Source of the DNA: Knoellia flava TL1
GTDB taxonomy: Bacteria; Actinomycetota; Actinomycetes; Actinomycetales; Dermatophilaceae
Direction: 5' to 3'
Length of the DNA stretch: 35,817 nt
NCBI RefSeq assembly: GCF_000768675.1
Contig: NZ_AVPI01000033.1
Coordinates: forward strand, 1 to 35,817
A program made the position numbers and the translations under genes. The notes beneath the pieces are model-generated. The model was not told where the DNA came from. It did no database searches and saw nothing but the letters and a program-made list of their open reading frames with translations. Below, piece by piece: positions 99 to 35,817 of this stretch (its first letter is position 1; every line of letters starts with the position of its first letter).

Positions 99-128
99 GC
101 CGCGCCGGCCGGCATACGGCATCGGCAT

Positions 129-169
129 GACGAAGGCCCGCCCCGCAACACGCGGGGCGGGCCTTCGTC
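129..169. terminator. Bidirectional hairpin terminator between convergent genes
   Basis: An 18-bp perfect stem (129-146 with 152-169) closes a 5-base loop. It lies between the stop of the Arg-rich protein (+) and the stop of the alcohol dehydrogenase (-), so it can serve both. The outer end of the stem is GACGAAGG/CCTTCGTC. There is no long U tract, which is usual in high-GC actinobacteria. Confidence 0.85.
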
Positions 170-177
170 TCTCATCG

Positions 178-1236
178 TCAGGCCGGGATCGTCGCGGTGT
201 CGATGACGTAGCGGTAGCGGACGTTGCCCGCCACGACCTCGTCGTATGCCGTGTCGACGGTCGTCGTGTCGCTCGCGTCGAGCTTCTCGATCGTGGCGCC
301 GATGCCGTGCTCGGCGCAGAAGTCGAGCATCTCCTGGGTCTCGCCGATGCCACCGATGTTGCTGCCGGTGAGGACCTTGTTGCCGCCGATGAGGCTCCCC
401 GGGCTCACGGAGAGCTTGCTGGGCGGAAGGCCGACGTTGACGAGCGCACCGTTGGGGCGGAGCAGCCGGACGTAGGTCTCCATGTCGAGGTCGGCGCTCA
501 CGGTGTTGACGATGAGGTCGAAGCTGCCCCTCGCGTCCTTCATGGCGTCCTCGTCGCTCGTCGCGATGTGCCGGCTCGAGCCGAGCTCCTTGGCGTCGTC
601 GGCCTTGGCGGAGGAGCGCGAGAGCGTGGTGACCTCGGCGCCCATCGCGGCGGCGAGCTTGACGGCCATGTGCCCGAGGCCGCCGACACCGACGACGGCG
701 ACCTTCTTGCCCGGCCCGGCGCCCCAGCGGCGCAGCGGCGAGTAGGTCGTGATCCCGGCGCAGAGCAGCGGAGCGGCCTCGTCGAGCTCGATCCCCTCGG
801 GGATGCGCAGGACCATGCGCTCGGTGACGACGATCTGCTGGCTGTAGCCGCCGGCGGCCCACTCGCCGTCGTAGTTCTGGCTGTTGTAGGTGCCGACCGA
901 ACCCTTGCTGCAGAACATCTCCTGGCCGTTCTTGCAGTTCTCGCACTCGCCACAGGAGTCGACGAGGCAGCCGACGCCGACGCGGTCGCCGACCTTGAAC
1001 TTCGTCACGCCGTCACCGACGGCGCTCACCGTGCCGGCGATCTCGTGGCCGGTGACGATCGGGTAGTGCGCGGCGCCCCACTCGTCGCGGACGGTGTGGA
1101 TGTCGCTGTGGCAGATGCCGGCGAAGGCGATGTCGATCCGGACGTCGTCGTCGCGCAGGTCACGGCGCTCGAGGTCGACAGCCTCGAAGGGAGCGCCGGC
1201 GGAGGGGACGGACAGTGCTCGTGTGGTGGTGGGCAT
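178..1236 (-). CDS. Zinc-dependent NAD(P) alcohol dehydrogenase (cinnamyl-alcohol/YahK-AdhC type)
   Basis: A 352-residue medium-chain dehydrogenase, full length for the family. It should interconvert alcohols and aldehydes with NAD(P)H in the cytosol. The catalytic zinc ligands are visible as GICHSD (Cys42) and GHEIAG (His64-Glu65). The structural-zinc lobe has Cys95, Cys98, Cys101 and Cys109. GVGGLGH in the second half is the dinucleotide-binding turn. The ATG at 1236 is chosen because TACGGT (1243-1248) ends exactly 7 bases upstream, fitting a leaderless mRNA; the frame stays open further upstream but that extension is antisense to the ParA gene and is not plausible. The Cys/GHE pattern resembles the broad-specificity CAD/YahK/mycobacterial AdhC group; the physiological substrate cannot be read from the sequence. 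It stands alone, convergent with the upstream helicase-like gene. Confidence 0.92.
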   Translation of the reverse strand: MPTTTRALSVPSAGAPFEAVDLERRDLRDDDVRIDIAFAGICHSDIHTVRDEWGAAHYPIVTGHEIAGTVSAVGDGVTKFKVGDRVGVGCLVDSCGECENCKNGQEMFCSKGSVGTYNSQNYDGEWAAGGYSQQIVVTERMVLRIPEGIELDEAAPLLCAGITTYSPLRRWGAGPGKKVAVVGVGGLGHMAVKLAAAMGAEVTTLSRSSAKADDAKELGSSRHIATSDEDAMKDARGSFDLIVNTVSADLDMETYVRLLRPNGALVNVGLPPSKLSVSPGSLIGGNKVLTGSNIGGIGETQEMLDFCAEHGIGATIEKLDASDTTTVDTAYDEVVAGNVRYRYVIDTATIPA

Positions 1237-1242
1237 GTCACC

Positions 1243-1248
1243 ACCGTA
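1243..1248 (-). promoter_or_regulatory. Predicted -10 hexamer of a leaderless promoter (alcohol dehydrogenase)
   Basis: TACGGT on the minus strand ends 7 bases before the ATG at 1236, placing the transcription start on the start codon. No Shine-Dalgarno sequence is present. Confidence 0.5.
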
Positions 1249-1292
1249 AACCCGCACGAGGGGTGCCCCGGACCGCGCGTCGGGGGCTGCGC

Positions 1293-2075: not shown

Positions 2076-2173
2076 GTGAGGTCCTTGCGAGAGAGATCGG
2101 TATGCCGGTCCACGCAGAGCGTGGGACCCACGCCCCAGTGTCTCAGGCCGGTCGCCTGCGGTCGGCACCCCCG

Positions 2174-3109: not shown

Positions 3110-3994
3110 TCAGTCGACCTCGACCGCGCGGGGGACCTCGGCGGGCTCGAGCGCCGCCCACCCGGACTTCTCCGGCCCTGCCGTCTGGCCCTCGGGGCAG
3201 TGCGCGCGGAAGTCGCACCACGTGCACAGCGGCCCGACGACCGGTGGGAAGAGGGTGGACTCCACCCCGCGTTCGGCGAAGTCGGCGTCGGCCCGACGGG
3301 CGTCTCGGGCGATCGACTTGGCCTCGTCGACCTTGCGGGTGAGTGACTCCGGCGTGTGGGTGTGCGAGACGACCTCACCGGTCGGCACGTGGTGGAGCTC
3401 GACCCGCAGGCAGGGGCGGCGGAACATCTTCCAGACGGCCGCGGCATACAGGGCCATCGGCAGCGAGGTCCGCGCGTCCGCCTCGCCGAGCGGCTTCTGG
3501 CTCGTCTTGTAGTCGACGACGACGAGCTCGCCGTCGCGGTCGTCGAGCCGGTCGATGCGGCCGGTGACCCGCAGGTCCCCGCTGACGAAGGAGACGGTGC
3601 GTTCGATGCCGGTCGGGTGGTCGTCGGGGTCGACGCGGGAGAGGTAGGCGATGACGTGCTCCTGTGCGCGCCGGCGCCACTCACCCGACTGCTCGGCGTC
3701 ACGGAAGCCGGTCTCGATCCACGACTGGCGCACCAGCTCGTGTCCGGCCGAGGCGGTGCGGCGCTCGCGCGGCAGGTCCCACCAGTCGCGCAGCGCGTTG
3801 TGCACGGCGAGGCCGAACGACGTGTGCGCACGCTGGGGCCGCTGCTCGGGTCGCGGCCGGTCGAGGTACTGCATCCGGTAGCGCCGCGGGCAGTCGACGA
3901 GGGCGAGCAGGCGCGAAGGGCTCGCGGGATAGAGCCTCGGCGGCATCCCCGCGAGCTCGGCCTGCACCGGTCGCCCGGTCGTCACCTCGGTCAC
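3110..3994 (-). CDS. RecB-family PD-(D/E)XK exonuclease with a probable 4Fe-4S cluster
   Basis: A 294-residue stand-alone nuclease domain. The PD-(D/E)XK core shows His65 (LAVHNALRDW), Asp148 (GRIDRLDD) and Asp161-Tyr-Lys163 (VVDYKT). Four cysteines, Cys35 (DCPRRYR) and Cys257/Cys260/Cys266 (CTWCDFRAHC), match the Fe-S staple seen in AddB, Dna2 and CRISPR Cas4. Mycobacterial Rv2119 is a comparable stand-alone RecB-like protein. It should cut or resect DNA in repair; no helicase partner is adjacent. The GTG at 3994 is chosen because TAGGTT (4001-4006) ends 7 bases upstream, fitting a leaderless transcript; there is no Shine-Dalgarno site. A second GTG three codons inside is possible. Confidence 0.87.
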   Translation of the reverse strand: MTEVTTGRPVQAELAGMPPRLYPASPSRLLALVDCPRRYRMQYLDRPRPEQRPQRAHTSFGLAVHNALRDWWDLPRERRTASAGHELVRQSWIETGFRDAEQSGEWRRRAQEHVIAYLSRVDPDDHPTGIERTVSFVSGDLRVTGRIDRLDDRDGELVVVDYKTSQKPLGEADARTSLPMALYAAAVWKMFRRPCLRVELHHVPTGEVVSHTHTPESLTRKVDEAKSIARDARRADADFAERGVESTLFPPVVGPLCTWCDFRAHCPEGQTAGPEKSGWAALEPAEVPRAVEVD

Positions 3995-4044: not shown

Positions 4045-4931
<887 letters not shown>

Positions 4932-4935: not shown

Positions 4936-5777
4936 GGTTCCACCACCTTCACGCCAGAGGACTGCTCGACGATACGTGACCACTGTCGGGGCTGCGTCGT
5001 GTGCTCACCGAGGCGGTTGAGCTTGCCGGCGCCGTGGTAGTCGCTGCTGCCGGTGACGGCGAGGTCGTGTCGGTGCGCGAGCCGCACCGCACGCTCGACG
5101 TCGGCGGGCTCGTGGTCGCGGTGGTGCGCCTCGAGTCCGGCGAGGCCGGCCGCGGCGAGCTCCTCCACCAGCTCGTCCGAGACCGTCGCCATCCGCGTCG
5201 CGAAGGGGTGCGCGAGCACCGGCACACCCCCGGCCGCCAGGACGATCGCGATGGCGGCGACGGGGTCCGGCGCGTAGTGCCCGACGTAGTAGCGGCTGCC
5301 GTCGTGCAGCAGGTCACGGAAGGCCTCGTCACGGTCGGCCACCACGCCTTTCGCGACGAGGGCGTCGGCGAGGTGCGGGCGCCCGAGGGTCGCTCCCGGC
5401 GCCAGCTGGGCGCGCACCTCCTCGACCGACACCGGTATGCCGTCCGCGGCCATCCGCTCGATCATTCGGTCCATCCGCGTCACCCGGCTGTCGCGGGCTC
5501 GGGCGAGCTCGACGACGAGGCGCGGGTCGTCGGGGTTGGGCAGGTAGCCGAGGAGGTGGATGCTGCGGTGGTTCCGGCTGCACGAGATCTCGATGCCCCG
5601 CACGAGCCGGATGCCGACCTGCTGGGCCGCCGCGGTCGCCTCCTCCCAGCCGGCCGTGGTGTCGTGGTCGGTGAGGGCGATCATGCCCAGCCCGACCGCC
5701 TCGGCCTCGGCCACGAGCTCGGCCGGTGTCTGGGTGCCGTCGCTCGCGCTCGAGTGCGTGTGCAGGTCGATCCTCAC
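4932..5777 (-). CDS. PHP-domain phosphoesterase (RNase AM / YciV-TrpH-like)
   Basis: 281 residues with all metal-binding motifs of the PHP family: DLHTHSSASDG at the N-terminus, ALTDHDTT near 36, VRGIEIS near 60, VLAHP in the second half, LEAHHRDH, and the C-terminal GSSDYHG. The trinuclear-metal YciV/TrpH group hydrolyses 3',5'-nucleoside bisphosphates and trims short 5' RNA ends; that is the closest known activity. The GTG at 5777 is preceded by TAGGGT (5784-5789) exactly 7 bases upstream and by no Shine-Dalgarno site, implying a leaderless message. It is the first gene of an operon with purU (4-base GTGA overlap). Cytosolic. Confidence 0.9.
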
Positions 5778-5817: not shown

Positions 5818-5842
5818 CAACCTTCGACGGCATACCCGCGTA
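5818..5842 (+). promoter_or_regulatory. ECF-type promoter of sigma cassette 1
   Basis: -35 CAACC (5818-5822), a 16-bp spacer, and -10 CGTA (5839-5842). The AAC/CGT pair is the classical ECF arrangement. The same pair with 16-17 bp spacing occurs before the other two sigma cassettes, suggesting autoregulation. A start near 5849 would leave a leader of about 25 bases. One copy of the CGGCATAC octamer lies in the spacer. Confidence 0.65.
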
Positions 5843-5873
5843 GTGGGTGGTGGGACCACGACGAGGGGGAGAC

Positions 5874-6377
5874 ATGGGACGAGAGTCCAAGGCCGAACGC
5901 GACGCCGCGTTCACCGCGTTCATGACCGACGCCACGCCGTCGTTGCTGCGCACCGCGTGGCTGATCACCGGTTCGACGGAGCGCTCGCAGGAGCTCGTCC
6001 AGGCGGCGTTCGTCAAGACGTATGCCGCCTGGCCCAAGGTGCGACGCCACTCCGCGCTCGCCTTTGCCCGCCGGGTGCTGGTCAACCACAAGACCGACAC
6101 CTGGCGCCGCACCTCACGCGAGGTCGTGGGCGACGTGCCCGAACGCTCCACCGCACCCGACTCCTCGGTCGAGCACCGCGACCAGATCCTGCGGATGCTC
6201 GACCTCCTGCCTCCGCAGCAGCGACGCATCGTCGTCCTGCGCTACTACCAGGACCTGTCCGAGCAGCAGGTCGCCGACCTGCTCGGCATCTCCGTCGGCG
6301 CCGTGAAGTCCGGCGCCTCCCGTGGCCTCGCCACCCTCCGAACCGCCCACCCCTCCACCGAAGGGAGCCAGCGATGA
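5874..6377 (+). CDS. SigE-family (ECF-like) RNA polymerase sigma factor, cassette 1
   Basis: 167 residues with only sigma regions 2 and 4. Region 2 includes LLRTAWLITGSTERSQELVQ and TYAAWPKV. Region 4 is the helix-turn-helix LPPQQRRIVVLRYYQDLSEQ followed by VADLLGISVGAVKSGASRGL. The lineup with tryptophan motifs (AWLITG, AAWPKV) is typical of the TIGR02983 SigE-family group of Streptomyces and relatives, distinct from mycobacterial SigE. The ATG at 5874 has GAGGGGGAG upstream; an in-frame upstream start at 5847 would overlap the promoter. The ATG of the partner membrane protein overlaps its stop (ATGA). It is the first of three tandem cassettes; promoter recognition is probably of its own CAACC/CGTA site. 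Confidence 0.92.
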   Translation: MGRESKAERDAAFTAFMTDATPSLLRTAWLITGSTERSQELVQAAFVKTYAAWPKVRRHSALAFARRVLVNHKTDTWRRTSREVVGDVPERSTAPDSSVEHRDQILRMLDLLPPQQRRIVVLRYYQDLSEQQVADLLGISVGAVKSGASRGLATLRTAHPSTEGSQR

Positions 6378-7216: not shown

Positions 7217-7254
7217 TCCCACCGCGCGGCACGAGAATCAGTACCCTCCCGGCC

Positions 7255-7303: not shown

Positions 7304-7816
7304 ATGGACAGGGATCCGGACTTCACGGCATACGTCATGGCGCGGCGACCACAGCTGTACCGGACGGCGGTGCTGCTGTGCGGCGACCCGCACCGCGCCG
7401 AGGACGTCGTCCAGGACGCGCTGGTGCGCCTGTATGCCGTGTGGCCCCGCGTGGCGTCGATCGGCAACGTCGACGCGTACGTGCGCCGGGTCATCGTCAA
7501 CGCCCACCTCTCCGACCGGCGCCGCCCGTGGCGGCGCGAGTCCCCTCGCGAGCTCCCCGACACGGCGATGGCGCCGGGGTTCGGGTTCGAGGAGACCGAC
7601 GCCGTCCGAGCCGCGATCCGTCGGCTCCCACCGGGTCAGCGCCGGGTCGTCGTGCTCCGGCACATCTGGGGACTGTCCGTCGAGCAGACCGCCCAGGAGC
7701 TCGGCATCAGCACCGGCACCGTCAAGAGCCAGACGGCCGACGCCCTCGCGTCGTTGAGGCAGGCGCTGTCACCGGCCTACGAGAGCACGACGCCCAGGAG
7801 AGGAGAGGACCGATGA
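7304..7816 (+). CDS. SigE-family (ECF-like) RNA polymerase sigma factor, cassette 2
   Basis: 170 residues, regions 2 and 4 only. Region 2 shows QLYRTAVLLCGDPHRAEDVV and the LYAVWPRV tryptophan motif; region 4 shows LPPGQRRVVVLRHIWGLSVE and ELGISTGTVKSQTADAL. It is clearly paralogous to the sigma factors at 5874 and 8737. The ATG at 7304 is preceded by GGAAGGGAG. The stop overlaps the ATG of its membrane partner (ATGA at 7813-7816), the same junction as in cassette 1. Two GTATGCCG/CGGCATAC octamers (7326 and 7432) fall in the gene, read as TAYV and LYAV. Confidence 0.92.
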   Translation: MDRDPDFTAYVMARRPQLYRTAVLLCGDPHRAEDVVQDALVRLYAVWPRVASIGNVDAYVRRVIVNAHLSDRRRPWRRESPRELPDTAMAPGFGFEETDAVRAAIRRLPPGQRRVVVLRHIWGLSVEQTAQELGISTGTVKSQTADALASLRQALSPAYESTTPRRGEDR

Positions 7817-9234: not shown

Positions 9235-10240
9235 CCCGATCCTCGAGCTGCTCGCCGCTCCCCCGTCCCCGGCCATGTCCGTCGACGAGGACGCCGTCCA
9301 CACCGGCGGCCGTCGCCGCCTGCGCCGCCGCAACCTGCGCCGCGCGGGCGTGGGTGCCGGCGCTGCGGTCGCCGCCGCCGCGATCGCCTTCACCACCCTT
9401 GGCTCCGGCCTCGGCGGGGAGGCGCTGCCAGCCGGACCTTCGACCTCCGTCGACGCTGGCCGACGCGTGTCCGCCGCCCTGTTCGACGGCGACTGGTCCG
9501 TCGAGGTGCGACCGGGCGCCCCGGCCGACCAGCCGAACGTCATGTTCTACAAGGGCTCGGGCACGTCACGGCAGCAGCTCGCGGGGTCGAGCGCCGACGC
9601 GACCGTCGTCTCCATGGGCACCGGGACCGGCGCCGACGGCGTCATGCTCGGCACGGCTCCCGCTGACGCGGAGCAGTTCCTGACCGTCACCAGAGACGGC
9701 ACCACCGGTGGGGTCGAACAGGACACCAAGCCGCTTCCCGGGACCGACTACCAGGCGATCGCGCTGAGGTTCGAAGTCCCCGCGCAGACCGAGAACTATG
9801 TCGACACCTTCTGGACCAACGCCGTCGACGAGGTTCGCTCGGCCCGGGGCGAGCTCCTCCCGAGCGTTCCCACCAACGACGGCGACCGGTTCTTCCTCGC
9901 TCGTGAGGCCGGGACCATGGGGGTCTTCATGGCCGACGGCAGCGGCGGCTCGACCCGCCCTCTCACCACTGGCGAGAGCACGACGATGGGCTATGGGCAG
10001 AAGCCCGACGGTGGCGCGTGGTCCTGGAGCTCGGTGACGCTCCTGCCGGAGGGCGCGCGAGACGTGAGGCTCGAGTGGGCGAACGCCTCCCGCACCACCG
10101 ACGTCACCGTCCGCTCACTCGGCACCGCCGAGGTCGCTTTCGCCAAGGCGTCCGGACCCGGCGCCGGCTCGGGCCCCATCGTCACCACGGTGAGCTGGAC
10201 CGACACGGCGGGCACACGGCATACCGAAGCGGTGGAGTAG
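9227..10240 (+). CDS. Single-pass membrane protein partner of sigma factor, cassette 3
   Basis: 337 residues. The basic cytosolic segment (about 28-40, GGRRRLRRRNLRR) precedes one Ala-rich transmembrane helix (about 41-60) and a large extracytoplasmic domain of about 270 residues. It lacks the Pro/Thr linker and the GDTDTLPA junction of the other two partners, so it is the most divergent member. There is no zinc anti-sigma motif. AAGGAGG precedes the ATG at 9227, which lies inside the end of the sigma gene. Function as sensor or anti-sigma is inferred from coupling and topology; the outer domain is not recognised. One CGGCATAC octamer lies near its stop (10217). Confidence 0.84.
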   Translation: MSDPILELLAAPPSPAMSVDEDAVHTGGRRRLRRRNLRRAGVGAGAAVAAAAIAFTTLGSGLGGEALPAGPSTSVDAGRRVSAALFDGDWSVEVRPGAPADQPNVMFYKGSGTSRQQLAGSSADATVVSMGTGTGADGVMLGTAPADAEQFLTVTRDGTTGGVEQDTKPLPGTDYQAIALRFEVPAQTENYVDTFWTNAVDEVRSARGELLPSVPTNDGDRFFLAREAGTMGVFMADGSGGSTRPLTTGESTTMGYGQKPDGGAWSWSSVTLLPEGARDVRLEWANASRTTDVTVRSLGTAEVAFAKASGPGAGSGPIVTTVSWTDTAGTRHTEAVE

Positions 10241-11372: not shown

Positions 11373-12275
11373 TCAGGCGGCAAGCGCACGTCGCAGCATC
11401 GCGGCCACTCGCGCAGGGTTCGACAGGTCGGCCCACGTCAACCTCACCACGGCATACCCGAGAGCCCGCAGCCGGTCCTCACGACGCTTCTCCGCCGCGA
11501 GCGCCGCGCGGCCCTGCGAACCGGCGTACTTCTGCAACCCGTCGAACTCCACGACGACGCGGCCGCCGACGAGGAAGTCCACCTTGGCCACGAACTCGTC
11601 GTGCTCGTCGCAGATGACGACCTGACTCCGCCAGCTGAACCCGAGGTCGTGGAGGAGCAACCGGGTACGCGACTCACCGGGTGAGTCGCTCTTCGGGTCG
11701 GCCAACGAGATCAACGTGGCGCCCAACGCCGCGTGACGCTTCGGCGCCAGCACTGCGAGAGCCGCCTCGAGGTCCTCGATGACGCAGGCCCTCGTGCGAA
11801 GGGCAGCGTCCAAGGGGACCACCGCCGCTTCCAGCCCCGACCGGAGGAGCACCTGGACGATGGCGTGCCCGATACGAACCGCTCGCACACCCTCGACGTT
11901 CACGGACGGCAGGTCACCGGGTTGGGTCCGCAGTCCCGCCGACAGCCGGACTCGGCTGACGTTGGACTGGGCGTCAACGACGTCGAGACGCACGCCGTGA
12001 AGGGGCAGGCGGTGCAGGGCGAGGGCGGCCTGATGTGTGGCGACATCCGCCCGACGGGCTCTCAGGACAGCCTTGGTCCTCAGCCGGAGCGCGTCCTCGT
12101 GCTCGGCAGCAGCCCAGATCTCGCCCACGACGTAGGCGCCGCGCCGCACTCGCACGACCTCCTTGGACCGGACCAGTGCGCGCAGCGTCGCGTCGTCGAC
12201 GTCGACGTGTCGCGCGTCGGCCGTGGAGAAGACCCCGCCGAGGTCCATGGCGAGCCGGTGCAGTCGGGCATCCAT
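11373..12275 (-). CDS. AbiEi-like winged helix plus DUF559 (Vsr/PD-(D/E)XK-like nuclease fold) protein
   Basis: 300 residues. The N-terminal part (about 1-60, with [20 protein letters not shown]) resembles the AbiEi antitoxin winged helix. The C-terminal 110 residues fit DUF559: [19 protein letters not shown], then [19 protein letters not shown], with the Asp-Glu-rich strand pair and basic helix of the Vsr-type endonuclease fold. Such proteins are abundant in multiple copies in actinobacteria and their role is not established; no toxin partner is adjacent. ATG at 12275 is chosen because CACGCT ends 7 bases upstream (leaderless), and the longer ORF start at 12335 runs into the flanking repeat area. 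The gene is bracketed by inverted repeats (11307 and 12362), which is the oddity here. Confidence 0.82.
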
Positions 12276-12410: not shown

Positions 12411-13925
<1,515 letters not shown>

Positions 13926-16720: not shown

Positions 16721-16724
16721 TTGG

Positions 16725-22040: not shown

Positions 22041-22227
22041 GCGTGGAAGCCGCCTTCGTGAGTGGGGTGAAAGACGTTGTCGAGTATGCCGTCCGCCCAC
22101 CTGCCGGCCCACCGCTGCGGCGTGTGAGTCCTCCCACCTCCACCGGTCGAAAAGGTCCGTGGGTGGCGCATGACTGCACGGGCCGGGGGTAGGGACATCG
22201 ACGTCCACGTCAACGAAAGGAGACCCC

Positions 22228-22734: not shown

Positions 22735-22842
22735 GAAAACCGGTGGCGCCGACCCGTCGGGGGGTGCCACGCTGGAGCGAGCCACACGGCATACGAGAGA
22801 GCGCGGTCGCGAGGACCACGCTCCGAGAGAAGGAGGCGTGAC

Positions 22843-24618: not shown

Positions 24619-25491
24619 CTACCGCCGACCGGCGATGACGTCGTGGGTCGCCAGGACCCGCCTCGCGACCTCGACGTGGAGGTTCTCGACCATGCGGCCG
24701 TTGTGCGTCACGACCCCGGTCCCGGCGCCGGCCTCCCACGCCTCGAGGATGCCGCGCGCCTCCACGACCGCCTCCTCGCTCGGAGCGAAGGTCGCGTTGC
24801 AGGCCTCCACCTGGCCGGGGTGGATGAGGGTCTTGCCGTCGAAGCCGAAGTCGCGTCCCTGGACGCACTCCGCCTCGAACCCCTCGGCGTCCTTGACGTC
24901 GTTGTAGACCCCGTCGAGGATCGCGATCCCCGCTTCGCGCGCGGCGAGCAGCGACAGCTGCAGGGCAGTGAGCAGCGGCGCCCGGCCGGGGACGTGCTCG
25001 GCGCGCAGCTCCTTGACGAGGTCGTTCGTGCCCATGACGAGGACGGCGAGCCGCGGTGACGCCGAGGCGATCTCGCGGACGTTGAAGATCGCCTCGGGCG
25101 TCTCGACCATCGCCCAGAGCCTCGTGTGCTCCGGGGCGCCGGCCGCCTCGAGCGCGGCCACGAGCGATCGCACCTCGTCGGCCGAGCCGACCTTGGGCAC
25201 GACGATGCCGGCGGGCCCGGCGGCAGCGGCCGCGGCGAGGTCGGCGTCGTGCCACTGGGTGCCCGAGCCGTTGATCCGGATCGTGACCTCGCGGTCGCCG
25301 TACTCGCCCGATGCCGCTGCGGCACAGGCATTCTCGCGCGCCGCGTCCTTGTGGTCCGGCCCGACTGCGTCCTCGAGGTCGAGGATGAGCGCGTCGACCG
25401 GCAGCGTCTTCGCCTTCTCGAGCGCGCGCTCGTTCGAGCTGGGCATGTAGAGGACCGACCGACGAGGCACGTATGCCGTCTGCTCCCCCAT
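24619..25491 (-). CDS. HpcH/HpaI aldolase/citrate lyase family CoA-ester lyase (CitE/malyl-CoA lyase-like)
   Basis: 290 residues of a TIM-barrel CoA-ester lyase. SVLYMPSSNERALEKA opens the barrel, LILDLEDAVGPDHKDAAREN holds the metal Asp/Glu, TIRINGSGTQWHDADL has the substrate arginine, WAMVETPEAI the metal glutamate, and FDGKTLIHPGQVEACN the C-terminal CoA-binding loop. Enzymes of this family split malyl-, citramalyl- or beta-methylmalyl-CoA or act as malyl-CoA thioesterases; exact substrate cannot be decided. Its ATG overlaps the stop of the upstream lyase by one base (TGATG), so the two are coupled. A GTATGCCG octamer at 25471 provides the TAYV codons. Confidence 0.88.
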   Translation of the reverse strand: MGEQTAYVPRRSVLYMPSSNERALEKAKTLPVDALILDLEDAVGPDHKDAARENACAAAASGEYGDREVTIRINGSGTQWHDADLAAAAAAGPAGIVVPKVGSADEVRSLVAALEAAGAPEHTRLWAMVETPEAIFNVREIASASPRLAVLVMGTNDLVKELRAEHVPGRAPLLTALQLSLLAAREAGIAILDGVYNDVKDAEGFEAECVQGRDFGFDGKTLIHPGQVEACNATFAPSEEAVVEARGILEAWEAGAGTGVVTHNGRMVENLHVEVARRVLATHDVIAGRR

Positions 25492-26579
25492 CAGGACGCC
25501 TCACCCTCGCCCGACGCGGCAGGTGAGTCGACGGCATACAGCGTCGCGAGCTCGGGGTCGCTCGCGCTGAGGCGATCGGCGAGCTCGAGGATGACGAGGC
25601 ACTGCTTGAGCGAGGCGTCGTCCTCCATCTTGCCGTCGAGCATGACGGCGCCGGTGCCGTCGCCCATAGCCTCCTTGACGCGGCGTGCGTGGGCGACGTC
25701 CTCGGCGGACGGGCTGAAGACACGCTTGGCGATCTCGATCTGGACAGGGTGCAGCGACCACGTGCCGACGCACCCGAGGAGGAAGGCGTTGCGGAACTGG
25801 TCCTCGCAGGCGACGACGTCCTTGATGTCACCGAAGGGCCCGTAGTAGGGGAAGATCCCGTGCATCGCACAGGCGTCGACCATCCGCGCGATCGTGTAGT
25901 GCCACAGGTCCTGCTGGTAGGTCGCGCGGGCGCCCTCGACGTCGCCGTCCACGGGGTCCTGCCGCACGAGGTAGCCCGGGTGGCCGCCGCCCACGCGGGT
26001 CGTCTTCATCCGACGGTCGGCGGCGAGGTCGGCCGGACCGAGGCTGATGCCCTGCATGCGCGGCGAGGCGCCGGCGATGGCCTCGACGTTGGCGACGCCG
26101 CGGGCGGTCTCGAGGATCGCGTGGACGAGGATCGGCCGGGTGAGCCCGGCGCGTGCCTCGAGCTGGGCGAGGAGACGGTCGACGTAGTGGATGTCCTCGG
26201 GGCCCTGGACCTTCGGCACCATGATGACGTCGAGCCGGTCGCCGATCTCGGTGACGAGGGTGACGAGGTCGTCGAGGACCCACGGGCTGTCGAGGCTGTT
26301 GACGCGCGTCCAGAGCTGGGTGGACTCGCCGAAGTCCGTGCTCTTCGCAATGTCGACGAGGCCCTGCCGGGCGGCCTCCTTGCGGTCGGCCTTGACGGCG
26401 TCCTCGAGGTTGCCGAGGAGCACGTCGACCGTGCCCACCATCGCGGGGACCTTCGCCGCCATCTTCTCGTTGCTCGGGTCGAAGAAGTGGATCATCCGGC
26501 TGGGGCGGGCGGGCACCTCGCGCACCGGCGCCGGGGCGCCGACCGCGAGAGGGCCGAAGAAGTCCTTGGGTGAGCGCAT
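25491..26579 (-). CDS. HpcH/HpaI aldolase/citrate lyase family protein (malyl/beta-methylmalyl-CoA lyase-like)
   Basis: 362 residues. It shares the CoA-ester-lyase layout with its neighbour: [60 protein letters not shown] and [13 protein letters not shown]. It is longer, with an N-terminal extension (about 1-40) and an extended loop ([20 protein letters not shown]) as in actinobacterial malyl-CoA/beta-methylmalyl-CoA lyase-type proteins. The pair of unequal paralogues recalls the mcl1 (lyase) and mcl2 (thioesterase) pair of the ethylmalonyl-CoA pathway, but no crotonyl-CoA carboxylase gene is in the window. ATG at 26579; TAGCGT (26588-26593) ends 9 bases upstream, giving a leader of about two bases. 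Confidence 0.86.
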
Positions 26580-26633: not shown

Positions 26634-27170
26634 GTGAGCGGCTCCGCGCAGACACCCTCCCCCGTCAACGTCACGCGCCTGCTCGCCGAGGCGGCGAGCA
26701 AGTCCGGCGTGATGTGGGTCGAGGTGCCGGACAGGGGCACCCACGCGGTCTGGTTCGTCTGGCACGACGACGAGGACCCTCGCGGCGCCGGGCCCGCGGC
26801 CTACGTCGTCTCCGGCGTCGGCGAGCAGACCCTGCCGCACCTGCCGCCGGAGGTGCGGGTCATCCTGCGCAGCAAGGACACCGGTGCCCGCCTCCTCGCG
26901 TTGCCCGCCACGACCCGTGAGCTCGAGCCCGGATCGCCGGAGTGGGACGCCGCCGCCGAGGTGCTGCGCGCCGAGCGGCTCAACGCCACCGGCGACGTCG
27001 TCGCCCGCTGGCGCGAGAGCGCGACCATCACCGTCATCACTCCTCATGGCCGTCCCGACGAGGCGCCCGGATCGTATGCCGTCGGCCCCGGTCGCGTGAC
27101 CGTCACGCCCGCGCGTGGGACGACGGCGCGTTGGCGGCCGTGGCACTGGCGCGGTCGCGGTCGCGACTGA
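26634..27170 (+). CDS. Conserved hypothetical protein upstream of the MgtE_N/CBS gene
   Basis: 178 residues, no signal peptide or membrane helix. Not a family I recognise. Its features are [20 protein letters not shown] and [20 protein letters not shown] in the first half, [10 protein letters not shown]-like beta strands later, and a very basic Trp/Arg-rich tail ([14 protein letters not shown]) that could bind nucleic acid or membrane. GTG at 26634 has no clear ribosome site; a weak GACAGT lies 8 bases upstream. It is divergent from the lyase operon (54-base gap) and lies 88 bases before the MgtE_N gene in the same direction, in the block conserved around mrp and tatB. Confidence 0.7.
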
Positions 27171-28557: not shown

Positions 28558-29131
28558 GCGCCGCGACCGCGCGCCTCGCCTCGACCAGCCGCGAGAGGCG
28601 AGGCGCCAGTTCATCAGCCGCCCCGAGGCCCTCACCGAGGAGGCGTTCGGCGTCCTCTCCGAGCGGTTCGCCCGCTACATGGGGACGGCCTACTTCCTCA
28701 TCGGCATGACGATCTTCGTCCTCGCCTGGGTGCTGTGGAACCTCCTCGCGCCGAGCGACTGGCGCTTCGACGAGTACCCCTTCATCTTCCTCACGCTCAT
28801 GCTCAGCCTGCAGGCCTCGTATGCCGCGCCGCTCATCCTCCTCGCGCAGAACCGCCAGGCCGACCGTGACCGCGTGGCCCTCGAGCAGGACCGCACCAGG
28901 GACGAGCGCAACCTCGCCGACACCGAGTTCCTCACCCGCGAGGTCGCCGCGCTGCGGATCGCCATGCGCGACAGCGCGACCCGTGACTTCGTCCGCGGCG
29001 AGCTGCGCGACCTGCTCGACGAGATGGAGGAGCGAGGGCTCGTCGTGGGTCGGCTGGCCCCCGACGACCGTGACGCATCGGACACCGCCAGGACCCGGCC
29101 CGATGAGGGAGGATCGCACCGCTCGACCTAG
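28550..29131 (+). CDS. DUF1003 membrane protein
   Basis: 193 residues. Two transmembrane helices (about 45-68, TAYFLIGMTIFVLAWVLWNL; about 78-100, PFIFLTLMLSLQASYAAPLI) are separated by a short loop with DEYPF, and are followed by a long charged coiled-coil-like tail (about 102-170, NRQADRDRVALEQDRTRDER). This is the standard DUF1003 layout, with the tail in the cytosol. The start overlaps the MgtE_N/CBS gene by eight bases with GAGG upstream. Possibly the membrane partner of the soluble MgtE_N/CBS protein; this is inferred from overlap alone. The octamer at 28819 supplies SYAA. Confidence 0.9.
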   Translation: MAERRDRAPRLDQPREARRQFISRPEALTEEAFGVLSERFARYMGTAYFLIGMTIFVLAWVLWNLLAPSDWRFDEYPFIFLTLMLSLQASYAAPLILLAQNRQADRDRVALEQDRTRDERNLADTEFLTREVAALRIAMRDSATRDFVRGELRDLLDEMEERGLVVGRLAPDDRDASDTARTRPDEGGSHRST

Positions 29132-29140: not shown

Positions 29141-30286
29141 ATGCCCGACACCGCTGCACCCGTGAGCGACGAGGCCCTGCGCGCCGCTCTCTCCACCGTC
29201 AACGACCCCGAGATCCGCAAGCCGATCACCGAGCTCGGCATGGTCGAGTCGGTGGAGTGCGACGACACCGGACGGGTCGCGGTGACCGTGCTGCTCACCA
29301 TCGCCGGCTGCCCCCTCAAGGACACCCTCACCAAGGACACGATCGCGGCCCTGCTCAAGGTCCCCGGCGTCACCGCCGTCGACGTCACGCTCGGTGTCAT
29401 GTCCGACGAGCAGCGCGCCGAGCTTCGCACGAACCTGCGCGGTGGCGCGGCCGAGAAGGAGATCCCCTTCGCCAAGGCCGGCAGCCTCACCCGCGTGTAT
29501 GCCGTCGCGTCCGGCAAGGGCGGCGTCGGCAAGTCGTCGGTGACGGCCAACCTCGCGGCTGCGCTCGCCGAGCAGGGCCTCAAGGTCGGCGTCGTCGACG
29601 CCGACATCTACGGCTTCTCCATCCCGCGCATGCTCGGCGTCGAGCATCGGCCGACCCAGGTCGACGAGATGATCCTGCCGCCCGTCGCCCACGACGTGAA
29701 GGTCATCTCGATCGGCATGTTCGTGCCCGGCAACCAGCCGGTCGTCTGGCGTGGCCCCATGCTCCACCGGGCCCTGCAGCAGTTCCTCGCCGACGTCTTC
29801 TGGGGCGACCTCGACGTCCTCCTGCTCGACCTCCCCCCGGGCACGGGCGACATCGCGATCTCGGTCGCCCAGCTCATCCCCGGCGCCGAGATCCTCGTCG
29901 TCACGACCCCGCAGCAGGCGGCGGCCGAGGTCGCCGAGCGCGCCGGCGCGATCGCCGTCCAGACCCACCAGCGGGTCGCCGGGGTCATCGAGAACATGTC
30001 GTGGCTCGAGCTGCCCGACGGCACCCGCCAGGAGATCTTCGGCTCCGGAGGCGGGCAGGTCGTCGCGGACTCGCTCACCCGGAGCATCGGCGCCCCGGTG
30101 CCACTGCTCGGCCAGATCCCGCTCGACACGTCGCTGCGCATCGGTGCCGACCAGGGCAGCCCGGTCGTCCTCGGCGAGCCCACCTCCCCCGCGGCCGTCG
30201 CCCTGCGCGGCATCGCACGCGAGCTCGGTCAGCGCTCCCGCGGCCTCGCGGGTCGCTCGCTCGGCCTCACCCCCGCCGGCCGCTGA
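29141..30286 (+). CDS. mrp: Mrp/ApbC/NBP35-family P-loop ATPase
   Basis: 381 residues. An N-terminal DUF59/MIP18-like domain (about 8-100, VNDPEIRKPITELGMVESVE and TIAGCPLKDTLTKDT) is fused to a ParA/Mrp ATPase domain. The P-loop is SGKGGVGKSS (124-133), and DVLLLDLPPGTGDI is the Walker B region. The family carries and delivers [4Fe-4S] clusters. The CPxC motif that binds the bridging cluster in canonical Mrp is replaced: the corresponding stretch reads NMSWLELPDGTRQEIFGSGG, with no cysteine. Only two cysteines occur, both in the N-terminal domain (Cys40, Cys57). This is the actinobacterial form of Mrp (Rv1229c-like). Starts at ATG 29141 after TAGCAT. Confidence 0.93.
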   Translation: MPDTAAPVSDEALRAALSTVNDPEIRKPITELGMVESVECDDTGRVAVTVLLTIAGCPLKDTLTKDTIAALLKVPGVTAVDVTLGVMSDEQRAELRTNLRGGAAEKEIPFAKAGSLTRVYAVASGKGGVGKSSVTANLAAALAEQGLKVGVVDADIYGFSIPRMLGVEHRPTQVDEMILPPVAHDVKVISIGMFVPGNQPVVWRGPMLHRALQQFLADVFWGDLDVLLLDLPPGTGDIAISVAQLIPGAEILVVTTPQQAAAEVAERAGAIAVQTHQRVAGVIENMSWLELPDGTRQEIFGSGGGQVVADSLTRSIGAPVPLLGQIPLDTSLRIGADQGSPVVLGEPTSPAAVALRGIARELGQRSRGLAGRSLGLTPAGR

Positions 30287-30804: not shown

Positions 30805-32262
30805 TCAGTCGCTCCTGCCCTGGAGGACCATCTTGACATCCCGCGACTTCCCGTCCCGCACGACGGTCAGGGAGACCGTCGAGCCCACCGGCTTGGAGCG
30901 GATCGCCACGACGAGAGCGTCCGGGTCGGTGACCGGCTGGCCCTCGAACGCCGTGATGACGTCACCGGGCTCGAGCCCGGCCTTGTCGGCCGGGCCGCCG
31001 GGCGTGACCGCCGGCGTCTGGCTGCTGTCCTCGCCGATCTTGACGCCCTCGCCCTGGTAGCTGCGGTCGAGGACGACACCGATGACGGGGTGCTCGGCCT
31101 TGCCGGTGCGGATGAGCTGGTCGACGGTGATCTTGACCTGGGCGCTGGGGATGGCGAAGCCAACGCCGATGTTGCCGCTCTGCCCGTCGAGGCTCGAGCC
31201 GGCGACGCGAGCGATCGCGGTGTTGACGCCGATGACCCGTCCCTGCATGTCGAGCAGCGGCCCGCCCGAGTTGCCCGGGTTGATCGCCGCGTCCGTCTGG
31301 ATGGCGTTGATGAAGGACTGGTCGTCGGCCTGGCCGGGCGTCACGGGCCGGTTGAGCGCCGACACGATGCCGGTGGTGACGGTCGAGTCGAGGCCCAGCG
31401 GCGCGCCCACGGCGATGACCGGGTCGCCGACGACGACGTCGGCGGAGTCGCCGAGCGTCAGCGCCTTGAGGTCGGTGCGCTCGACCTTGAGGACGGCGAG
31501 GTCGTAGGAGACGTCCCGCCCGACGATTGTCGCCTTGGACTGCTTGCCGTTGGCGAGGACGACGGTGATCGTGCCACCGTCGGCGGCCGAGGAGACGACG
31601 TGGTTGTTGGTGACGATGTGGCCCTTGCCGTCGAGCACCCAGCCCGAACCGGTGCCGTCGCCGCCGGTCGCCTCGACGCGGATCGTCACGACGCTGGGCG
31701 TCGCCCGCGCGGCGATGTTGGCGACGCTGCCCTCGGGGCGCGCCGTCGCTCCGGCGCCCGGCTTGGGCGCCGATCCGTTGTCGGAGCTCCCGCCGATGTC
31801 GAGGCCGTCGAAGCGGTCGGTCGAGCCGACCCATCCGCCGAGCAGGCCGCCACCGAGACCCGCGAGCAGCGCGGCGACGCCGGCGATGAGGAAGACCGCG
31901 AGCCAACCCGGACCGCGCCCGCTGCGACCCGACGACGGCGAGGAGGGCGAGGTGGGCGCGGCAGGCGAGCCGCCGGCATACGGACGAGGAGAAGCGGCCG
32001 CGGCATAGGGGTCGTATGCCGTGTGCCCACCGGGCTGCTGCCAGCTCTGGGGGCCGGCCGGCCGGCTCTGGGTGGACTCCCGCGACTGGGACGCCGCGGC
32101 GTCGGACCACCACGTCGGCTCCGGTTCGCGCGGCGGGAGCAGTGGCTGCTGGCCGGGGGCCGGACCGATCTCCTGCGTCCGCCCCAGGTCGACCTCGGTC
32201 GTGTGCCGCGGGTCGACGTCGGGGGACTCGCCGTCGGCGCGGTGCGGGCTGTCCTCGGTCAT
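30805..32262 (-). CDS. Membrane-anchored HtrA/DegP-family serine protease (PDZ)
   Basis: 485 residues. A long, Pro/Ser-rich cytosolic N-terminus (1-118), one transmembrane helix (about 119-146), a trypsin-like protease domain with His221 (NNHVV), Asp254 (YDLAVL) and Ser332 (NPGNSGGPLL), and a C-terminal PDZ domain (about 395-480, GGPADKAGLEPGDVITAFEG). The catalytic triad is intact. It degrades or refolds misfolded envelope proteins and is equivalent to PepD/HtrA2 (Rv1223), a SigE target in mycobacteria. ATG at 32262 overlaps the rseA stop (ATGA). Two octamers (31974, 32014) fall in the N-terminal region and supply PYAG and TAYD. Confidence 0.95.
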   Translation of the reverse strand: MTEDSPHRADGESPDVDPRHTTEVDLGRTQEIGPAPGQQPLLPPREPEPTWWSDAAASQSRESTQSRPAGPQSWQQPGGHTAYDPYAAAASPRPYAGGSPAAPTSPSSPSSGRSGRGPGWLAVFLIAGVAALLAGLGGGLLGGWVGSTDRFDGLDIGGSSDNGSAPKPGAGATARPEGSVANIAARATPSVVTIRVEATGGDGTGSGWVLDGKGHIVTNNHVVSSAADGGTITVVLANGKQSKATIVGRDVSYDLAVLKVERTDLKALTLGDSADVVVGDPVIAVGAPLGLDSTVTTGIVSALNRPVTPGQADDQSFINAIQTDAAINPGNSGGPLLDMQGRVIGVNTAIARVAGSSLDGQSGNIGVGFAIPSAQVKITVDQLIRTGKAEHPVIGVVLDRSYQGEGVKIGEDSSQTPAVTPGGPADKAGLEPGDVITAFEGQPVTDPDALVVAIRSKPVGSTVSLTVVRDGKSRDVKMVLQGRSD

Positions 32263-33562: not shown

Positions 33563-33570
33563 TTCGCTGC

Positions 33571-34206
33571 ATGAGCACCCTCAAGCCCGCGAGCTGGTCG
33601 TACGCCGAGGACTTCGTCCCCGAGCCCGAGGCCATGGAGCAGGCCCGAGCGCGCGGTCTGGCCTTCGACGCCGCCACCCCGGTCGGCACCGGCGCGGGCG
33701 CGACCCTGCGGGTGCTCGCCGCCGCCATCGGCGCCCGCCACGTCATCGAGATCGGCACCGGTGCGGGCACGTCGGGCCTGTGGGTGCTCGCCGGCATGCC
33801 CGAGGACGGCGTGCTCACGACGATCGACATCTCCCCTGAGCACCAGCGCGCCGCCCGCGAGGCCTACGCCGGCGCCGGCTACCCGACGCAGCGCACCCGC
33901 GTCATCACCGGCCGGGCGACCGAGGTGCTCCCCCGCATGACCGACGGCGCCTACGACATGGTGCTCATCGACGCGGACAAGGCGAGCTACCCGGCATACG
34001 TCGAGCACGGGATCCGGCTGCTGCGCAGCGGCGGCGTGCTCGCCCTCGACAACATGCTCTGGCACGACAAGGTCGCCGACCCGGCGGCGCGCGACGTCGA
34101 GACGACGACGCTGCGCGACCTCGGCAAGTCGCTGCGCGACAACGAGGACGTCGTGCCCGCCCTGCTCCCGGTGAGCGACGGACTGCTCGTCGCCGTCAAG
34201 CGCTGA
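33571..34206 (+). CDS. SAM-dependent O-methyltransferase (Rv1220c-like)
   Basis: 211 residues, class I methyltransferase of the catechol/caffeoyl-CoA O-methyltransferase family 3. The SAM motif [20 protein letters not shown] is near residues 53-72, [17 protein letters not shown] is motif II, and [20 protein letters not shown] holds the metal Asp. The divergent position next to sigE is the same as Rv1220c/Rv1221. Substrate unknown; catechol-like compounds are typical for the family. It ends before a long hairpin (34211-34288). Confidence 0.93.
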
Positions 34207-34210
34207 CAAC

Positions 34211-34288
34211 CACGACTTATTGCCCGTTTGGGCCGTTCCACGGTCGGCTCGCCGCGCTGGAATTGGCCCAAACGGGCAATAAGTCGTG
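34211..34288. terminator. Long perfect hairpin with CGACTTATTGCC box
   Basis: A 24-bp perfect stem (34211-34234 with 34265-34288) and a 30-base loop that itself has a TTCCA/TGGAA pair. It lies between convergent stops (34206, 34297). CGACTTATTGCC (34213-34224) is fully mirrored at the right edge, unlike at 30298 and 19288. Probable bidirectional terminator. Confidence 0.85.
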
Positions 34289-34296
34289 CGATGGAG

Positions 34297-34662
34297 TCAG
34301 GCGTGGGCGTCGACGTGCGGGCCGGCTCCACGGCGGAAGCCGGCCGGTCCCTCGGCGATCGCGACGACCTCGAACTCCTCGATGACCGTCGGCGCCGAGC
34401 CGATGAGCTCGGACCCCTTGGACTCGCCGGCGGTCGCCTCGAACTCCTCGCGGAAGACCTTGCGCTCCTGCTCGGTGTCGAAGACGTAGGTGCCCTCGAA
34501 CCACTCGCCCTCGCGCATCCGCCACACCTTGAAGGCGAGCCCGTCGAGGAACATGAACTTCGCGATCGAGGTGCCGACGACGTACTCACGCAGTCGGGCG
34601 GGGGCGTCTTCGGGGGCGTTCTCGAGCGACCAGCGCACTGCCAGTCCGTATCCGGCGTTCAT
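34297..34662 (-). CDS. Small conserved protein translationally coupled to leucyl aminopeptidase
   Basis: 121 residues, no membrane helix. The fold looks like a dimeric alpha-beta barrel of the YdhR/monooxygenase type, with KFMFLDGLAFKVWRMREGEW and EGTYVFDTEQERKVFREEFE; this is a weak resemblance, and no catalytic residues can be named. The ATG at 34662 overlaps the stop of the upstream aminopeptidase gene (ATGA), with GGAAGG upstream. Function unknown; co-translation with an M17 peptidase suggests linked expression only. Confidence 0.78.
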   Translation of the reverse strand: MNAGYGLAVRWSLENAPEDAPARLREYVVGTSIAKFMFLDGLAFKVWRMREGEWFEGTYVFDTEQERKVFREEFEATAGESKGSELIGSAPTVIEEFEVVAIAEGPAGFRRGAGPHVDAHA

Positions 34663-35817
34663 CGCAGACCTTCCAACCATCGCAGCAGCAGTCGGGTGCC
34701 GAACCCCGTCCCACCCTTGGCGTGGACTCCGGAGTCGACATCGGAGCGGCCGGGGCCGGCGATGTCGAGGTGGGCCCAGCGACGCTCCCCCACGAACTCC
34801 TGCAGGAACAGCGCCGCCGTGATGGACCCACCTCCGACGGAGGGACCGATGTGGTTGATGTCGGCCACGTCGGACTCCAGTGCCCGACGGTAGGCCGCGA
34901 CGAGCGGGAAGGGCCACAGCGTCTCACCTGCTGTCTCACCGGCCTCGCGGAGCTGGGACGACAGGTCGTCGTCGGTCGCGTAGACCGGAGCCATCGTCCG
35001 GGCGAGCGCGACCCGCGCCGCACCGGTGAGGGTGGCGATGTCGACGACGACATCGGGGTCGAGCTCGGCGTCGGCGTAGGCCAGGGCGTCGGCGAGCACG
35101 ATCCGCCCCTCGGCGTCGGTGTTGCCGATCTCGGTCGTTCGTCCCCCGTAGTGCGTGACGACGTCGCCGGGCCGGTATGCCGCACCGTCGACCATGTTCT
35201 CGGCGAGCGCGAGCAGGCCGGTCACCTTGACCGGCACCTCGAGGTCGCGGCACGCGGCGAGCACCGCGAGGACGATCGCGGACCCGGTCATGTCGGTCTT
35301 CATCGCGAGCATGCCCTCGGCGGGCTTGACCTGGAGGCCGCCCGAGTCGAAGGTGATGCCCTTGCCCACGAGGACCACGTGGGGCGTCGAGGCGTCGGCG
35401 CCGTCGGGTGCCCAGCGGAGCTGGACGAGCCGCGGCGGGGTGCCGGAGCCGCCACCGACGGCGAGCAGACCGCCGAACCCGCCCTTGCGCAGGGCCGACT
35501 CGTCCCAGACACGCACGTCGAGACCGGAACGGCTCGCGACGGTCCGGGCCTGCCGGGCCATCCATGCGGGGTTCTTGATGTTGGAGGGGGTGTTGGCGAG
35601 GTTGCGCGCGACGAGGGTCGCCACGGAGCGGCGCACGGCGCGCTCGACGACGTCGGCCTCGGCACCGACGACGACGACCTCACCGGCCACCTCGGCGCCG
35701 GCGGTCCACTCCCCACCGGTCCAGCGGGTCGGCGCCCAGCCGCCGAGGACCGCACCCTCGACGAGCGCGGCGTGGCCGGCCTCGTCGGAGGGCGGCGCGA
35801 GGACGACGACGTGGTCG
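34659..35817 (-). CDS. pepA: Leucyl aminopeptidase (M17), 5' end outside the window
   Basis: At least 385 residues of the C-terminal and middle region; the frame is open to the window edge. The signature VGKGITFDSGGLQVKPAEGM carries two metal ligands and the catalytic Lys; NTDAEGRIVLADALAYADAE is the M17 motif with Asp/Glu ligands and the Arg. The catalytic domain is complete; most of the N-terminal macro-like domain is missing. It should release N-terminal residues from peptides and may bind DNA, as E. coli PepA does. Its stop overlaps the small gene at 34662. Confidence 0.95.
   Translation of the reverse strand, partial: DHVVVLAPPSDEAGHAALVEGAVLGGWAPTRWTGGEWTAGAEVAGEVVVVGAEADVVERAVRRSVATLVARNLANTPSNIKNPAWMARQARTVASRSGLDVRVWDESALRKGGFGGLLAVGGGSGTPPRLVQLRWAPDGADASTPHVVLVGKGITFDSGGLQVKPAEGMLAMKTDMTGSAIVLAVLAACRDLEVPVKVTGLLALAENMVDGAAYRPGDVVTHYGGRTTEIGNTDAEGRIVLADALAYADAELDPDVVVDIATLTGAARVALARTMAPVYATDDDLSSQLREAGETAGETLWPFPLVAAYRRALESDVADINHIGPSVGGGSITAALFLQEFVGERRWAHLDIAGPGRSDVDSGVHAKGGTGFGTRLLLRWLEGLR

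Follow-up and report, generated by a model that had tools for sequence, protein, structure and literature searches.

The octamer GTATGCCG is scattered in 34 exact copies over contig 33 of the 3.56-Mb genome of Knoellia flava TL1, a stretch of 35,817 bases that is referred to here as the window. The copies span positions 110 to 35182 and lie on both strands, 19 on the plus strand and 15 on the minus strand, exactly as counted in the original prediction, which had been made from the letters of the window. Copies in the same orientation avoid one another to a distance of about 1.5 kb and copies in opposite orientations do not; each orientation makes up an evenly spaced lattice of its own, and the two are used equally. 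In the genomes sampled the word is confined to one family. It is probably the core of a longer, asymmetric and polar self tag of the DNA-uptake-sequence kind, of independent origin, which would serve natural transformation.

Abundance of the word

Genome-wide, GTATGCCG occurs 2,541 times (1,268 + 1,273 on the two strands), or 0.71 times per kb, and its reversed-string control 94 times (44 + 50). The average gap between copies is 1.1–1.4 kb. An order-3 Markov model derived from the window itself expects 1.77 copies in place of the 34 observed, and dinucleotide shuffles of the window contained 0.44 copies on average and 4 at most. With the word masked, an order-3 model expects 1.86 copies in 415 kb of the TL1 genome, where 331 were observed. 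The over-representation claimed originally was therefore real, but its figure of about 30-fold was too low. All 34 GTATGCC heptamers in the window carry G as the eighth base, again as predicted. A Markov count that included all one-mismatch octamers had been proposed as a check, and in the same 415 kb most of these neighbours were found near expectation. The exception is CTATGCCG (19 copies, 3.1 expected), and GGATGCCG, GTAGGCCG and GTACGCCG show a weaker excess.

Genes were called with a simple custom caller trained on Knoellia, and its gene ends err in places. At least one gene (16.7–17.6 kb in the window) was placed wrongly, so that the sets called intergenic hold some genic copies. Eight of the 34 window copies fall outside called genes, in 10.7% of the window length. 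Two of these, at 16857 and 16898, lie inside a minus-strand frame that the caller missed (...KEEYAAML..., ...RPRMPV...), which leaves the six intergenic copies that had been given before. In a 436-kb sample of the TL1 genome, 88 of 332 copies lie outside called genes, in 14.8% of the length, where the same caller error is possible. Copy density between genes is 2.8 times that within genes in TL1, and 1.7 times in G164, a genome of another genus.

Selection on the word and the extended site

An origin of the word as a by-product of codon or dipeptide usage, or as a mobile repeat, is hardly credible. Most genic copies in the TL1 sample do stand in one frame per strand (115 of 137 sense and 84 of 107 antisense copies), as a by-product of coding would. 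Against this, Tyr-Ala is spelled with TAT in 115 of 135 cases when it is flanked by G on both sides, versus 12–24% in the other three contexts, so that the TAT-GCC spelling belongs mainly to the word. A codon or dipeptide by-product was rejected on the basis of this context-dependent use of TAT, and a mobile repeat because the flanks of the window copies are mutually unrelated. The denser occurrence between genes and the masked expectation of 1.86 also speak against both. It had been claimed that TAT and GCA codons occur largely inside the word; this holds for about half of the TAT codons in the sample (115 of 232) and fails for GCA (84 of 831).

Conservation was determined by aligning the window with eight genomes of the same genus, which are not mutually independent. 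The word was kept in 93 of 137 site-by-genome cases, where control octamers of matching codon phase would predict 40.8. Identity at third codon positions, for which a comparison inside and outside the word had been suggested, was 0.882 inside it and 0.728 outside, and identity at positions called non-coding was 0.879 and 0.733 respectively. Together with the Tyr-Ala context, the identity at third positions supports the earlier view that the target of selection is the DNA word and not codon usage. Sense copies outnumber antisense copies in genes (137 versus 107 in TL1, 157 versus 100 in G164), and the two classes drift differently along the gene. Unequal sense and antisense copies and a sense-dependent drift are likewise described for uptake sequences in PMC2346458.

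The octamer is embedded in a longer site. When 88 Knoellia and 85 G164 copies called intergenic were pooled, non-random bases were found at positions 9–19, -1 and -8 (chi-square above 16.3 at each); taken apart, the Knoellia copies fall below this threshold at position 16 and the G164 copies at positions 11 and 17. Common to both genera are G at position 12, a pyrimidine at 14, C at 15 and few A or T at 13. Position -1 is A in 4 of the 173 copies. Position 9 is T in 58 of the 88 Knoellia copies, and either C or T among the G164 copies. In all, the asymmetric site covers about 27 bp.

Distribution and dialects

The family was sampled with 186 genomes from 53 genera, and 103 of these genomes, from 30 genera, are word-rich, which is defined here as at least 800 copies of GTATGCCG. 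The order sample comprised 297 genomes; none of the 273 that belong to other families has more than 177 copies. In a phylum sample of 198 genomes, the top count outside the family was 386 in 7.5 Mb, in a genome with 176 copies of the reversed control. Sharp contrasts are found inside single genera. In g32, GTATGCCG is present in 19 copies in G083, 3,681 in G084 and 1,062 in G085; in g4, G008 has 37 copies and the others 1,251–1,660; in g41, G113 has 50 and the others 394–1,901. Among 80 named loci, 9–26 copies per 14–21 kb were found in seven Knoellia/HTCC2649 loci, Pedococcus, Ornithinibacter, two Tetrasphaera loci and Phycicoccus sp. Soil802. The eight loci named Phycicoccus include six without copies, together with Soil748 (3 copies) and Soil802 (13 copies).

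Several sister genera use a dialect. The most over-represented dispersed word was searched de novo in 68 loci of 14–20 kb around comEC. Among the 33 word-rich loci, a relative sharing six letters with GTATGCCG was recovered in 29, in one case as GAATGCCG (G047), and the dialect GTATGACG in two more. A related word was also found in five of the 35 word-poorer loci: GGATGCCG in G034, G017 and G178, GTATGCGG in G025 and the main word in G143. The dialect words GGATGCCG, GTATGACG and GTATGCGG are each one letter off GTATGCCG. Counts of GGATGCCG on the two strands are 2,258/2,222, 1,814/1,805, 1,104/1,091 and 1,116/983 in g15, 1,966/1,850 and 1,878/1,960 in g9, and 1,977/1,972 in g51, with about 110–675 per strand in the remaining family genomes. 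GTATGACG has 811–1,016 forward copies in five g14 genomes, 754/803 in g48 and 6/5 in TL1, and GTATGCGG has 233–613 per strand in g13. G178 (g51), which had seemed word-less with 40 copies of GTATGCCG, is rich in GGATGCCG and is thus a dialect speaker. In word-poor genera such as g46, g31 and g37, no related replacement word was found in the sampled comEC loci. The candidate replacement CGCCGTAC in G083 was put down to codon context, because close variants of it also rank with the most frequent words of Nocardioides. A tree of the comEC neighbourhood, which is rough (ComEC found in 57 of 68 loci, a Knoellia-trained caller and much missing data), shows word-rich and word-poor genera mixed together.

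Two other words were noticed in the same loci. CCCCCTTCG, unrelated in its letters to GTATGCCG, is over-represented and dispersed in the word-less genera g27 and g35 (L118–L120, L124–L125, L203, L204, L211 and L212); it is strong in G053 and G092, and in the latter it occupies 26 bins of 500 bp versus 1.8 expected. A terminator element, a ribosome-binding signal and the word of another system are all conceivable. TGCCCGGGCA forms two local arrays in G053, with one further copy elsewhere. The arrays (L118, about 8666–8830; L120, about 8470–8640) have a unit of about 31 bp with CGCAACTGCCCGGGCAA and contain five and six copies of TGCCCGGGCA respectively.

Orientation-specific spacing

Neighbouring copies alternate in orientation in 136 of 187 steps over 260 contiguous kb of the TL1 genome, and in 21 of 33 steps in the window alone. 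A copy-poor part of contig C1 (34–55 kb) was kept in the 260-kb count and excluded from the pair-spacing, simulation and control-octamer statistics. Same-orientation pairs in TL1 reach 0.24–0.45 of expectation below 1 kb and 0.65–0.84 at 1–3 kb, and opposite pairs stay at 0.88–1.21 throughout. Similarly, the ratio for same-orientation pairs in G164 is 0.34–0.64 below 1 kb, then 0.83 up to 1.5 kb and roughly 1 at greater distances. Opposite pairs in G164 stay close to 1, with the exception of distances under 100 bp, where hairpin pairs fall and the ratio is 1.71.

These values were compared with simulations that retained the gene-position preferences of the copies. Below 1 kb, TL1 has 50 same-orientation pairs (136 +/- 20 simulated) and 149 opposite pairs (135 +/- 19), and its alternation is 0.717 (0.496 +/- 0.029). 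The corresponding values in G164 are 76 (152 +/- 21), 165 (143 +/- 20) and 0.636 (0.491 +/- 0.027). Gene-position bias is ruled out by the simulation as the source of the alternation. In 31 further word-rich genomes, 57 same-orientation and 121 opposite pairs were counted where 104 of each were expected, with alternation in 162 of 287 steps. General avoidance of direct repeats was ruled out in TL1 with 39 control octamers of similar count, pairs less than 20 bp apart being omitted. The set including the word averages 0.47 in alternation and 1.13 in the ratio of same-orientation pairs to expectation; the word is an outlier at 0.717 and 0.38, and the next values are 0.545 and 0.94. For G164, three control octamers were at hand.

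Strand totals are more equal than chance would make them. Across all 103 word-rich family genomes the mean squared z is 0.58 (nominal P 2e-4, which is too optimistic, as are all P values across genomes here, because genomes of one family share descent). It is 0.12 in nine Knoellia genomes and 0.91 in 60 control genomes, a hand-entered subset of the 273 from other families. The equality is also local, with 95 plus and 93 minus copies over the 260 contiguous kb of TL1 and 178 of 342 copies on the plus strand in 400 kb of a single-contig chromosome. No replication-strand polarity is seen by this local equality over 260 and 400 contiguous kb, in which the leading strand was not mapped. The original prediction of no strand skew is thus borne out by the totals, but it had missed the two separate lattices and the directional nature of the signal.

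Avoidance among same-orientation copies only indicates that the word is read directionally, and equal numbers with independent placement indicate that each copy acts one way, or for one strand, within about 1–1.5 kb. A reader linked to replication would leave a skew. DNA import, for which both strands and both ends may serve, and recombination at broken ends both fit.

A site that organizes or segregates the chromosome, at which a nucleoid or translocase protein would use oriented, even sites to set loops or guide a motor, would account for the even spacing, high density and conservation. Such a role is nevertheless improbable, because it is opposed by the lack of local strand polarity, by opposite copies that do not avoid each other and hence form no simple even lattice, and by absence within a genus (19 copies in G083 versus 3,681 in G084), which argues against an essential function.

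One rival is a Chi-like recombination signal, in which a helicase-nuclease such as AdnAB, resecting broken or imported DNA, would read the word from one side and switch to recombination. Breaks would be processed from both sides everywhere, hence both orientations would be kept evenly spaced; a one-sided stop for double-strand ends needs just such orientation-specific spacing with equal strands. The word also resembles Escherichia coli Chi in being an asymmetric, over-represented octamer, and Chi too is read from one side. In contrast, Chi in 400 kb of E. coli is skewed (77 of 98 copies on one strand) and clusters in the same orientation (17 pairs below 1 kb versus 8.0 expected). Chi needs RecBCD, and RecC is absent from the TL1 genome. 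Gene presence was determined in 80 family genomes, 35 of them word-rich, and RecC was found in 37 without tracking the word (12 word-rich genomes and 25 of the other 45). A RecBCD–Chi system was rejected on the skew and clustering of E. coli Chi and the absence of RecC from TL1. Several genera have neither the word nor a related replacement in the 14–80 kb sampled from each, which would be odd for housekeeping repair. A Chi-like signal of another kind is considered unlikely.

Inverted pairs and copy-poor DNA

In 836 kb, 13 convergent pairs of copies lie at most 50 bp apart. Nine of these are intergenic, and eight of the nine are 18–34 bp apart and within about 125 bp behind a gene. Two convergent pairs were folded and gave -19.9 and -38.3 kcal/mol. 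As judged with the simple gene caller, the excess between genes and the inverted pairs behind genes are as expected of a DNA uptake sequence. Close inverted copies of the DNA uptake sequence (DUS) act as terminators in Neisseria (PMC2397512), and the pairs found here are putative equivalents. A word that is optional, forms dialects, is bound to one family and makes hairpin pairs behind genes favours import over recombination at broken ends.

Foreign DNA may be poor in the word. A low-G+C stretch of 27 kb on contig C1 of TL1 (about 30.3–57.7 kb; L010–L011) contains one internal copy. Its G+C is 0.65–0.67, versus 71%, and an IS3-type transposase and a DUF6994 protein are encoded in it; it is perhaps an integrated element that ends before about 54 kb. 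The 49-kb genome of Tetrasphaera phage TJE1 has two copies, and the control also two. The scarcity in the stretch and in the phage favours import as well, but more weakly.

The same scarcity would suit a DNA-modification target or a restriction or anti-restriction mark of self, and an enzyme might recognize such an asymmetric 8-bp core together with its longer flank. Genomes normally avoid restriction sites rather than enriching them, and a modification target leaves the avoidance over a kilobase among same-orientation copies unexplained. This explanation is regarded as very unlikely.

Candidate machinery and weight of the evidence

Neisseriaceae DUS are read by the minor pilin ComP, and receptors of the ComP type would belong to the N_methyl pilin family. 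ComEC is present in all 80 family genomes and TadE in 79, word-bearing and word-less alike; an apparent break of ComEC in G113 proved to be a contig end. None of the four candidates considered as discriminating genes in the 80 genomes (ComEC, TadE, N_methyl pilin and RecC) tracks the word. In another actinobacterium, Micrococcus luteus, transformation requires tad genes (PMC4322843), and homologues of comEA and comEC are present (PMC6370729). A ComP-like receptor is not expected in the family, because N_methyl pilins occur in one of the 80 genomes and transformation in M. luteus depends on tad genes.

A self tag for natural transformation could work as follows. A competence receptor at the surface or linked to a pilus would bind the tag in one fixed orientation, and the bound duplex would enter the ComEA/ComEC channel from the tag in one direction, with or without being cut first; alternatively, only the strand carrying the word would be used. 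The reach of each copy would be roughly the next 1–1.5 kb to one side. Within that distance another copy pointing the same way would add nothing, and one pointing the opposite way would act for the other strand or side. The word would be spread and maintained as tagged DNA from kin is imported and recombined again and again, and a change of receptor would lead to a change of dialect. A more specific proposal, put forward tentatively and with slightly less than even confidence, is a directional uptake code with genus dialects in Gram-positive actinobacteria, in which a tag licenses about 1–1.5 kb on one side or one strand and the receptor is linked to the Tad pilus and ComEA and unlike ComP. 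Uptake, the receptor and the polarity of import are the parts of this explanation that we infer.

Several observations weigh against an uptake tag. The scarcity in foreign DNA comes from one stretch, the right end of which (from about 54 kb) holds ordinary-looking genes, and from one phage of lower G+C (0.577). A 10-kb gap between copies in G164 holds genes that look by eye like those for regulators and transport, with no obvious mobile element. In a small sample, the dialect GGATGCCG does not repeat the spacing of the main word. Strand totals in its seven genomes show no under-dispersion (mean squared z 2.0), and 82 copies in four loci form 36 same-orientation pairs below 1 kb versus 27.7 expected and 55 opposite pairs versus 26.4, that is, a lower same-to-opposite ratio only and no absolute avoidance. 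In three loci from genomes that use both GTATGCCG and GTATGACG, orientation changes in 28 of 53 steps when the two words are pooled. ComEC and TadE are equally common without the word, no gene tracking the word was found in the 80 genomes, and the single genome with N_methyl-family type IV pilins is G085, with none in TL1. Finally, uptake by Haemophilus did not depend on the orientation of its strongest uptake sequence (PMC1939737), so the classical model does not predict orientation-specific spacing. One-sided avoidance has either gone unseen in Haemophilus or is new here.

Copies in the window and neighbouring features

The copies of the word in the window are listed in Table 1.

Table 1. 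Exact copies of GTATGCCG in the window of Knoellia flava TL1.
Position	Strand	Remark
110..117	-	intergenic by gene caller
244..251	+	exact match
2100..2107	+	intergenic by gene caller
3442..3449	-	exact match
4636..4643	+	exact match
5435..5442	+	exact match
5828..5835	-	intergenic by gene caller
6020..6027	+	exact match
7326..7333	-	exact match
7432..7439	+	exact match
10217..10224	-	exact match
11450..11457	-	exact match
13087..13094	-	exact match
13754..13761	+	in glycerol kinase-like gene (named by eye)
13868..13875	+	same glycerol kinase-like gene as 13754 copy (named by eye)
14154..14161	+	exact match
15953..15960	+	exact match
16857..16864	-	minus-strand reading frame, Arg-Met-Pro
16898..16905	-	Tyr-Ala, frame of 16857 copy; same-orientation pair with it, 41 bp
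17477..17484	-	exact match
17900..17907	+	exact match
19488..19495	+	exact match
20795..20802	-	intergenic by gene caller
22084..22091	+	intergenic by gene caller
22787..22794	-	intergenic by gene caller
25471..25478	+	exact match
25532..25539	-	convergent pair with 25471 copy, 61 bp
27074..27081	+	exact match
28819..28826	+	exact match
29497..29504	+	exact match
31974..31981	-	divergent pair with 32014 copy, 40 bp
32014..32021	+	divergent pair with 31974 copy
33992..33999	-	exact match
35175..35182	+	exact match

Three other features of the window were noticed. Positions 5847–10240 hold three adjacent head-to-tail gene pairs, each by eye an ECF sigma factor and a membrane protein, and such a triple repetition of one gene arrangement is unusual. 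A near-perfect hairpin of about 70 bp lies at 16653–16731 (z -7.6 for a 105-nt stretch). It has at least nine further places in the TL1 genome and a few in the relative G072, with matches on both strands, and is a dispersed palindromic repeat, REP- or MITE-like. The word CGACTTATTGCCC has three copies in the window, at 30299, 34214 and 34276 (plus strand), and its 11-mer CGACTTATTGC occurs 11 times in 436 kb versus about 0.1 expected. The copies at 34214 and 34276 face each other and may thus represent a second family of terminator-like hairpins.

Comparison with known systems and significance

To our knowledge, uptake that selects DNA by sequence, with thousands of tags in the genome, is established in no more than two families, both of them proteobacterial. 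The likeness to the uptake sequences of Neisseria and Haemophilus that had been drawn originally is the best analogy on offer, in view of the dialects, the family restriction and the hairpin pairs, with thin data on scarcity in foreign DNA; a corresponding function is presumed. An excess of copies, restriction to a clade with dialects, a lack of replication polarity and the presence of competence genes (which do not discriminate) are all as in a DNA uptake sequence.

As with Neisseriaceae DUS, thousands of dispersed copies occur at about one per 1–1.5 kb, and mean DUS spacing in Neisseria is reported as about 1.5 kb, matching conversion tracts (PMC2397512). Eight DUS dialects are described in PMC3630211, and there as here they are restricted to a family and differ by one to few letters. 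The heart ATGCCG(T) is common to GTATGCCG and to AT-DUS ATGCCGTCTGAA (PMC2346458), which is probably a coincidence. Both ATGCCGTCTGAA and GCCGTCTGAA, the two DUS words counted, have no copies in 836 kb. The word of the present family requires GT before ATGCCG, lacks CTGAA and is found a phylum away. Also unlike the DUS/ComP system, no N_methyl pilin was found in 79 of the 80 genomes, Tad-type pilus genes occur instead, and orientation-specific avoidance was not met in the part of the DUS literature examined. The word is accordingly classed as one that would work like DUS without being a member of the Neisseriaceae DUS/ComP system.

The uptake signal sequences of the Pasteurellaceae (Hin and Apl types) are unrelated in sequence. 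Their even spacing was reported by Karlin, as cited in PMC1939737, and was judged there to be less even than a role in compaction would lead one to expect; in the same source, orientation of the strongest Haemophilus uptake sequence was without effect on uptake. The other comparison made originally, with cyanobacterial HIP1, holds loosely, HIP1 being a dispersed octamer of high density. HIP1 is palindromic, and hence without orientation, but GTATGCCG differs from its own reverse complement. A literature search, from which subscription journals were largely missing, gave no description of such a word in these bacteria among the papers listed.

If the word is an uptake tag, it would be a third case of an uptake code, independent of the others and from another phylum; about thirty genera have the word, and several have dialects. 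The family would then offer a natural experiment on the origin of such codes and on the co-evolution of receptor and word. The orientation-specific spacing gives a measurable hint about the mechanism, for which the classical systems could be checked at once. In addition, an uptake tag would predict which DNA design is acceptable to Knoellia, Tetrasphaera, Pedococcus and their kin, and scarcity of the word may give a per-gene hint of recent foreign origin.

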